From assembly GCF_000474235.1 (NCBI RefSeq), contig NZ_BATA01000003.1, forward strand, positions 1-64,000: 64,000 nucleotides of DNA. Direction: 5' to 3'. This document shows, piece by piece, positions 13,563 through 55,021 of the stretch; the stretch's first letter is position 1; each line of letters begins with the position of its first letter. The notes beneath the pieces were generated by a model, which worked only from the letters and a program-made list of their open reading frames with translations, was not told where the DNA came from and searched no databases. Source of the stretch: Halarchaeum acidiphilum MH1-52-1 (GTDB taxonomy: Archaea; Halobacteriota; Halobacteria; Halobacteriales; Halobacteriaceae). The translations under genes were made by a program, and so were the position numbers.

Positions 13563-13661
13563 GAAACGGTGAGGCTGGGATTCGAACTGGACGAGACTCC
13601 CAGTGATCGTCTCGTATGCTCGAATCCAGCGTCCCGTTCGTCTCACGTTGTTCGACAGAAA
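13563..13661 (-). mobile_element. tRNA-Ser 3'-flanking module with truncated tRNA copy
   Basis: Directly 3' of tRNA-Ser. A 25-bp perfect repeat (13563-13587) copies the tRNA 3' end from the T-loop GTTC to the discriminator plus 4 nt of flank; the original is 13658-13682. Between the copies are 70 nt with two nested inverted repeats: outer arms CTGGGATTCGA and TCGAATCCAG (one bulge), inner arms ACGAGAC and GTCTCGT. The spacer resembles that of the tRNA-Lys module at 54693-54813, including GTTGTTCG next to the intact tRNA and, in tRNA sense, GTCTCG...CCA just before the truncated GTTC. No gene is carried. Confidence 0.75.
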
Positions 13662-13744
13662 CGGTGAGGCTGGGATTCGAACCCAGGAGGCTGAATGCCA
13701 CCGGTTTTCAAGACCGGCGCGATAGGCCGCTCCGCCACCTCACC
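13662..13744 (-). tRNA. tRNA-Ser (anticodon TGA)
   Basis: 83 nt class II tRNA. The acceptor GGTGAGG/CCTCACC has discriminator G, as expected for serine. The anticodon stem CCGGT/ACCGG encloses CTTGAAA, giving anticodon TGA (codon TCA). A long variable arm (TGGCATTCAGCC) follows, and the T arm is CTGGG TTCGAAT CCCAG. No intron and no encoded CCA. Its 3' 21 nt are repeated 95 bp further along the transcript direction, in the module 13563-13661. Confidence 0.96.
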
Positions 13745-13814
13745 GCGTGATGGCTCGTTCTCGTCGATGCCGTATGCGGTTTTCGGCTTCGTCCCGTCGC
13801 GCGCGCGACGGATG

Positions 13815-54692: not shown

Positions 54693-54813
54693 TTCGCAGG
54701 AAAACGGGCCGGGAGGGAATTGAACTGGGGCGAGACGGTCCTCACTTCGTTCGGCTGCGACTCGCTTGCTCAATTCCCGGGCGTTTTCACTGCTCAGGTT
54801 GTTCGCAGGAAAA
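54693..54813 (-). mobile_element. tRNA-Lys 3'-flanking module with truncated tRNA copy
   Basis: Directly 3' of tRNA-Lys. A 33-bp perfect repeat (54693-54725; original 54802-54834) copies the tRNA 3' end from the T-loop GTTC through the discriminator plus 12 nt of flank. The 76-nt spacer has outer arms GCCGGGAGGGAATTGA and TCAATTCCCGGGC and a short inner stem GCGAG/CTCGC. It matches the tRNA-Ser spacer in CGAGAC, TGCTC-A-AT-CC and CTCA-GTTGTTCG, in the same order. In both, the truncated copy ends at the first G of GTTC and the joined sequence is CCA. No gene is carried. Confidence 0.75.
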
Positions 54814-54887
54814 CGGGCCGGGAGGGAATTGAACCCCCGACCGTCTGATTAAGAGTCAGACGCTCTGCCTAACTGAGCTACCGGCCC
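54814..54887 (-). tRNA. tRNA-Lys (anticodon CTT)
   Basis: 74 nt. Acceptor GGGCCGG/CCGGCCC, discriminator G. D arm GCTC...GAGC with AGTTAGGCA. Anticodon stem GTCTG/CAGAC encloses ACTCTTAAT, anticodon CTT (codon AAG). T arm GGGGG TTCAATT CCCTC. No intron, no CCA. Its 3' end is repeated 109 bp further along in transcript direction, within the module 54693-54813. Confidence 0.96.
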
Positions 54888-55021
54888 AACGCATTCACGA
54901 CTTACCGCGGGGTAGTCAAATAAGTTTCTTTCCGGGGGCGACGTGCGTTGCGGTGACGGGGATCACGCGCGTTCCCGCTGTCGGGAGGGTTAAGTGACGG
55001 CGTACGGTATCGGCCCGTAAC

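Follow-up and report, generated by a model that had tools for sequence, protein, structure and literature searches.

Hairpin-forming units that carry tRNA 3' ends form an order-wide family in Halobacteriales and may be recombination cassettes

Two related modules behind tRNA genes of Halarchaeum acidiphilum

The window analyzed here is a stretch of 64,000 nucleotides from Halarchaeum acidiphilum MH1-52-1 (contig NZ_BATA01000003.1), in which two tRNA genes are followed by modules of similar design. The first gene, tRNA-Lys(CTT), lies on the minus strand at 54813-54888 (ARAGORN; Rfam RF00005, 70.8 bits) and hosts a module at 54693-54812, whose features are all read on the same strand. The 3' end of the tRNA from G53 onward (nt 53-73), together with the 5' part of a small hairpin termed H1, makes up the first copy of a 33-bp direct repeat (54802-54834). 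H1 (CTGCGAACAACCTGAGCAG, 54790-54808) has a tip of the GAACGNNGTGAG type and a stem that covaries in alignment A1, and its pattern occurs three times within this genome. It is followed by an inverted copy of the T arm, GGGAATTGAGC (54768-54778), comparable to the R'' arm of the integron sites discussed below. This assignment is supported by folds, by pair counts and by a match at 54715-54778 (E 2.9e-18) to R1, a covariance model that we built from 13 units of this genome. The inner core (54726-54767) is conserved across the order and includes the box AGTCGCAGC (54754-54762), the tip CGAACGAAGTGAG with a GAA triloop (54741-54753) and the box GACCGTCT (54733-54740). A second direct copy of the tRNA 3' end, starting with GTTC and comparable to an R' arm, completes the module (54693-54725). 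It is identical to the first at 33 of 33 positions, which confirms the original prediction of a perfect 33-bp repeat with a spacing of 109 bp.

The second gene, tRNA-Ser(TGA) (13661-13745, minus strand; ARAGORN), is followed on that strand by a module at 13563-13661. This contains an inverted T-arm copy, TGGATTCGAGC (13618-13628), an inner stem ACGAGAC...GTCTCGT representing a short variant of the core (13588-13617), and a second direct copy of the tRNA-Ser 3' end that again starts with GTTC (13563-13587). The two modules had been predicted to share a breakpoint, and both copies do begin at G53 of the T arm, with junctions that read GTCTCG(T/C)CC(C)A-GTTC as claimed. As proposed, the Lys spacer does pair with itself, and over a longer stretch than predicted, the fold continuing through the trailer. 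No shuffled sequence folds equally well (RNA z -3.5, DNA z -3.75); the corresponding values for the Ser fold are -3.4 and -2.75. Spacer similarity, also predicted, is well above chance: the alignment scores 48.5, whereas 500 dinucleotide shuffles give 12.8 +/- 4.9 and at most 32.6, and the 3' flanks of tRNAs without a module give at most 24.1. Masking the inverted T arm gives a score of 56.0 versus 6.7 +/- 5.3. At the gathering score, Rfam 15 reports only three tRNAs in the window, and the modules match none of its families. A third exact match to GAACAACNTGAG in this genome (L001) has neither a module nor a tRNA and was discarded, and searches with the GAACAACNTGAG block alone, allowing two mismatches, return matches at chance level.

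A defined unit with arms matched to the local tRNA

The Lys and Ser modules are two of 22 units that lie behind 19 tRNA genes of this genome. To survey them, we located 41 tRNA matches and read the 3' flank of each; at 19 loci, a strong direct copy of the tRNA's own 3' end is found 68-134 bp downstream, with alignment scores of 31-46 versus maxima of about 20-28 on shuffled flanks. Tandem units are present at Arg-TCG, Tyr and Leu-TAA, among others. Nearly all units run from the trailer through the small H1, the inverted T arm and the inner stem to GTTC and the direct copy. Two loci have additional features. Contig C52 of this genome (G000:C52:169-231, L044) carries a second, short tRNA-Gly-like gene of 63 nt whose 3' end and trailing modules have both diverged; it is possibly a tRNA in decay or else an artefact of the contig edge. 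On contig C128 (L035), a frame resembling the C terminus of TnpB (..TTKECASCG..) is located directly after the module of an intron-containing tRNA.

Comparison of each tRNA with its copy in 227 units defines the limits of the copied piece. Identity is 96-100% at nt 53-56 and 82-98% up to nt 73; it falls to 54% at the next base and then to about 40%, and on the upstream side 74% at nt 52 gives way to values of about 14-44%. As the copy search used only the first ten bases, nt 63-73 played no part in finding the copies. The copied piece is thus exactly tRNA nt 53-73, its far end coinciding with the tRNA 3' end, and because this profile holds over 227 units the G53 breakpoint is general. One unit runs from GTTC (G53) to the next GTTC and comprises nt 53-73, a trailer with H1, the inverted T arm and the core hairpin. 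Units are roughly 110 bp long, mostly within about 95-160 bp, and nearly all are gene-free.

The hairpin consists of the inverted copy of the local T arm, paired with the direct copy, and an inner stem with the core AGTCGCAGC...GACCGTCT. In 79 model-aligned sequences, 92.8% of the cells of this structure are paired and 14 pairs have changed on both sides. Covariation is 0.315, versus 0.110 +/- 0.007 in shuffled controls, and sliding the partners abolishes the signal. This alignment was fitted to the structure and therefore leans towards it, but a MAFFT-based alignment gives a result of the same sign (0.269 versus 0.142 +/- 0.017). Orthologous Arg-GCG units of two Halobacterium species illustrate such compensation, one pairing CGTGAG with CTCACG and the other GGAGAG with CTCTCC. 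The spacing from T-arm box to core box is fixed at 6/7 or 5/6 nt, and nearly all units share an asymmetry in which the 5' side of the tip and the 3' spacer each have one extra nucleotide. The tip mostly reads YGAR-C-GNA-G-YGAR, and a GNA triloop is found in 86% of 79 tips, a count that excludes the named loci because the search pattern had biased them. In DNA, both GNA triloops and tandem G.A pairs of the YGAR type are exceptionally stable.

The arms had been predicted to adapt to each tRNA, and this stands for the T loop and the 3' strand of the T stem (nt 53-65). Restricting the comparison to positions that were not used in choosing the arm, we found that identity of the inverted arm at nt 63-65 is 0.64, 0.48 and 0.40 for the unit's own tRNA kind, versus 0.40, 0.25 and 0.29 for other kinds. 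Past nt 65 the two are about equal, and no general match to the tRNA remains. Complementarity of the inverted arm to the whole acceptor half was accordingly rejected, the positional profile covering nt 53-65 only.

A strong, covarying hairpin with arms specific to the local tRNA could act in RNA. The tRNA transcript would enter the module, and the hairpin would serve in tRNA 3' processing, termination or quality control, the inverted arm pairing with the T arm of the adjoining tRNA while the second copy competes for the inverted arm. We consider such a role unlikely. At pairs 1-2 of the inner stem in 126 units of core type A, 241 of 252 cells are Watson-Crick, with 3 G.T and 4 A.C, so that the covarying stem has no excess of G-U over A-C. 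The absence of a wobble excess on the transcribed strand is moderate evidence for a hairpin or inverted repeat acting at the level of DNA. Were the modules nevertheless to act as RNA, they would represent an unrecognized layer of tRNA 3'-end biology.

An order-wide family gained and lost as whole units

The original prediction proposed a covariance-model scan of haloarchaeal tRNA flanks, and R1 yields many additional matches with the same breakpoint across the Halobacteriales. It matches 37 of 40 relatives and, in a phylum-wide sample, is positive in 79 of 82 Halobacteriales genomes and gives 0 matches in the 312 genomes outside the order; within this sample, the family is order-wide and confined to Halobacteriales. 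The three R1-negative members of the order have few first-look candidates and are possibly GC-poor. In three genomes (G013, G011 and G007), 97 of 100 R1 matches share the strand of a tRNA gene and are found 30-695 nt to its 3' side, where chance would place 1.2-1.5%, and modules follow 19 of 43, 21 of 42 and 20 of 44 tRNA genes, respectively. About half of the tRNA genes carry units in the haloarchaea that were examined in full. Copies of the tRNA piece are almost exclusively downstream of the gene (232, versus 3 upstream).

Since R1 includes the T arm, it is biased towards tRNA sites, but a core-only pattern without any tRNA letters shows this linkage as well in GTDB genomes. All 80 loci among the matches listed for this pattern belong to haloarchaea, including Actinarchaeum halophilum, now classified as Halocatena halophila within Halobacteriales, and 68 of the 84 matches listed fall within 1 kb 3' of tRNA genes of 32 kinds. 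Several of the remaining matches listed are at contig ends or tRNA remnants, and about five have other outer arms. The latter are seen off tRNAs in Halorubrum and Halocatena (L220, L229, L243, L286 and L291; GGTGAG or GGTGCGG after the core), and these core hairpins with other arms are possibly part of a broader family sharing the core. A further module off tRNAs (L073, about 1390-1580) is located at the 3' end of a gene of the enolase/mandelate-racemase type, where the gene end GTTCGACGAGGCGTAAG is duplicated and the unit has its own GTTCGA repeat. The description of the modules as a tRNA-linked family therefore fits most copies, which are at tRNAs, but not the few found elsewhere, such as L073 at its protein gene. 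The proposed single mechanism, acting with one non-tRNA sequence at several tRNAs, extends from two genes to the whole order, with a shared core and the G53 breakpoint at more than 30 kinds of tRNA and an arm that tracks the T loop and T stem.

Strict linkage, on the sense strand, to tRNA 3' ends is the remaining point in favor of an RNA-level function. It is offset by the pattern of occurrence: half of the tRNAs lack modules, as do orthologs of module-bearing tRNAs in sister species, the number of copies per tRNA varies from 0 to 7, and some copies are off tRNAs altogether.

Eleven species of Halobacterium (genus g4) provide examples of this variation. Six have a unit at Arg-GCG, with up to three units per gene, and four have units at Leu-TAA, where the empty sites carry a matching flank. 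At Arg-GCG, the flank after copy 2 in G006 equals the flank directly after the tRNA in the unit-free G012, and the same empty-site match is found for G019 versus G023. Because the flank after the last copy directly follows the tRNA in several empty sites, we infer that whole units were gained or lost precisely between the tRNA and the original flank on its 3' side. Units also accumulate in tandem: an array at Gly-TCC (L075) holds seven units, five of them identical at 111 bp, G016 has two identical units at Arg-GCG, and identical units recur in the arrays L080 and L346. Mosaic units, which share a 5' half but differ in their cores, are present at L085 and L092. Core pairs with a similarity of at least 0.8 make up 6.7% of comparisons between the same tRNA kind in other genomes, 2.2% between other tRNAs of the same genome and 0.9% of the background, pointing mostly to persistence in lineages with some spread within genomes, hopping being at most occasional. 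Units are lost freely at a given tRNA, yet the family persists in nearly all genomes of the order, which implies gain or selection.

Could such units arise neutrally? Quasi-palindromes might form at tRNA 3' ends through template switching and tandem duplication, and gene conversion in polyploid cells might spread them; complementarity would then be a by-product of hairpin-templated correction rather than of recognition. Direct repeats, inverted arms, identical tandem units, mosaic units and strict Watson-Crick pairs are all compatible with this origin, which we nonetheless regard as quite improbable. A purely local process would not yield a core, AGTCGCAGC..GACCGTCT, that recurs at fixed spacing in many genera and behind more than 30 kinds of tRNA, and the family is absent from the 312 other genomes of the phylum.

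Recombination cassettes, integrons and integrative elements

We favor the interpretation that the modules are cargo-free, non-autonomous site-specific recombination cassettes of Halobacteriales for which the T arm is the attachment site, and estimate its probability at roughly one half (0.52). If so, a host recombinase probably recognizes the cassette in the form of a folded DNA hairpin. We infer that this enzyme, most likely a tyrosine recombinase, would exchange strands at the T arm. The cassette would insert at G53/T54 and, as it brings an identical 3' half, would regenerate the tRNA. The folded single strand is proposed to rebuild the T-arm binding site, a requirement that would keep the inverted arm complementary to the local T arm. 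On reaching a new tRNA, the arm may adapt through hairpin-templated repair and gene conversion in polyploid cells, but this mechanism is only proposed and has not been demonstrated. A recombination cassette accounts for the gain and loss of units at G53, the restoration of the tRNA, the structured site with its boxes and the tandem units, and host-matched arms follow if the recognized form is the folded strand. Against this interpretation, plain recombination between the 21-bp direct repeats could explain precise loss.

No recombinase linked to the modules was identified. The only universal candidate, a single-copy chromosomal tyrosine recombinase, occurs in all 31 relatives with a completeness of at least 90%, but its co-occurrence with the modules is not discriminating, as genomes with few or no detected modules (G015 and G033) have it too. 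In the H. acidiphilum genome, the gene for this enzyme lies on the same contig as the window, about 15 kb past its end (G000:C163:78926-79934), and is split over two frames by a frameshift or an assembly error. The original prediction also suggested looking for a solo integrase or replicon carrying the blocks, and none came to light in the collections searched: PLSDB plasmids contain no modules, phages give only 25-nt chance matches in an E. coli phage, and IMG/VR has no match to the strict core pattern. With a loose pattern, the IMG/VR matches listed include chance matches, and R1 supports at most one weak case in 80 loci. The lack of any circular or otherwise unintegrated form in these plasmids and phages and, by the strict core, in IMG/VR also weighs against the cassette interpretation.

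The closest structural parallel is the attC site of integrons, which is used as a folded strand, has R''/R' and L''/L' boxes, an unpaired spacer and a terminal structure, and measures 57-142 nt (PMC2727003). Like attC, the modules have outer R''/R' arms pairing over about 9-11 nt, an inner L''/L' pair, an unpaired spacer, a variable terminal structure, a putative exchange point on the inner side of a GTT box, and tandem units with precise gain and loss. They meet the folded-site feature of attC through covariation in helices 1-3, fixed spacers of 5-6/6-7 nt and a one-nucleotide asymmetry. The differences are equally clear. The R box of the modules is the T arm of the host tRNA, GTTCRAAT with C at position 4, instead of GTTRRRY; their core is conserved in sequence, nearly all units lack cargo genes, and they are confined to Halobacteriales. 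None of 8 module-bearing genomes has a match to the integron integrase model TIGR02249 above its curated 265-bit cut-off (best, 43.7 bits), and 14 control genomes likewise have matches only below it. With no integron integrase in these 8 genomes and a different R box, the modules do not qualify as members of integrons. A bolder proposal is an archaeal integron-like system spanning the whole order, in which the tRNA gene would take the place of attI and a host tyrosine recombinase would act on a folded single-strand att hairpin, carried by the cassette, with arms copied from the T arm of the host tRNA. It would be categorically new if true, and we hold it to be possible but doubtful.

Other short repeats offer looser parallels. 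REP/BIME sequences and MITEs are, like the modules, short, non-coding, hairpin-forming, multi-copy and presumably mobilized in trans, but do not share the 21-nt copy of the host tRNA, the arm inverted to it or the restriction to tRNA 3' ends. In haloarchaea, partial tRNAs directly beside full copies have been noted in Haloferax gibbonsii LR2-5 (PMC7921747), and tRNA remnants in Haloquadratum (PMC3119063). These resemble the modules in being 3' pieces that adjoin the full gene or lie at a distance from it, and in the available portions of these papers they appear as annotation counts or as provirus att sites. Neither an inverted arm nor a core, a unit structure, a tandem array or a family spanning the order is described in those portions. 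The original statement that no element with this layout had been described holds for the open-access literature searched, with the qualification, within the same portions, that partial tRNAs beside full copies had been recorded (PMC7921747). By that search, the family looks undescribed.

Should the modules prove to be recombination cassettes, they would join integrons as a second system whose recombination site may be a folded DNA strand, and would explain the origin of many haloarchaeal "tRNA remnants". To our knowledge, this would also be the first such folded-strand system in Archaea.

Conventional integrative elements use some of the same tRNA sequence. For SNJ2-type and other archaeal tyrosine integrases, attB consists of 3' parts of tRNA genes, among them the T stem-loop, and the tRNA is restored on integration; the core of SNJ2 is reported to be a short acceptor-end sequence (PMC8371274, a review). 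Known elements differ from the modules in bringing their own integrase and cargo, and the SNJ2-type core, confined to the acceptor end, does not coincide with the G53 breakpoint. The modules might still be scars left by SNJ2-type or other proviruses that entered the tRNA and later lost everything but their attachment sites, and integrative elements do occupy module-bearing tRNAs, as at a tRNA-Tyr (L294) and in G011. We judge this the least likely of the explanations considered here. In G011, an element of about 54 kb with a tyrosine integrase (PF00589, PF02899) beside its att site lies between tRNA-Arg(TCG) and the module, and this position suggests that the module was probably there first. 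The core of this element, CCTGCAACGCCCA, is a 13-nt acceptor-end sequence similar to the short core of SNJ2, not G53. Moreover, random deletions would not be expected to leave conserved, structured units in nearly every genome.

An integrase between direct repeats, the criterion for a conventional element, was sought, and the spacings are mostly gene-free. At the tRNA-Tyr of Halopiger djelfimassiliensis (L294:292-2042), we observed a small integrative element flanked by module-containing repeats. A repeat of about 131 bp, of which the module is a part, is present on either side of 1.77 kb that contain a methyltransferase gene and a fragment of an integrase, the latter 47% identical to the integrase of the G011 element over 45 amino acids.
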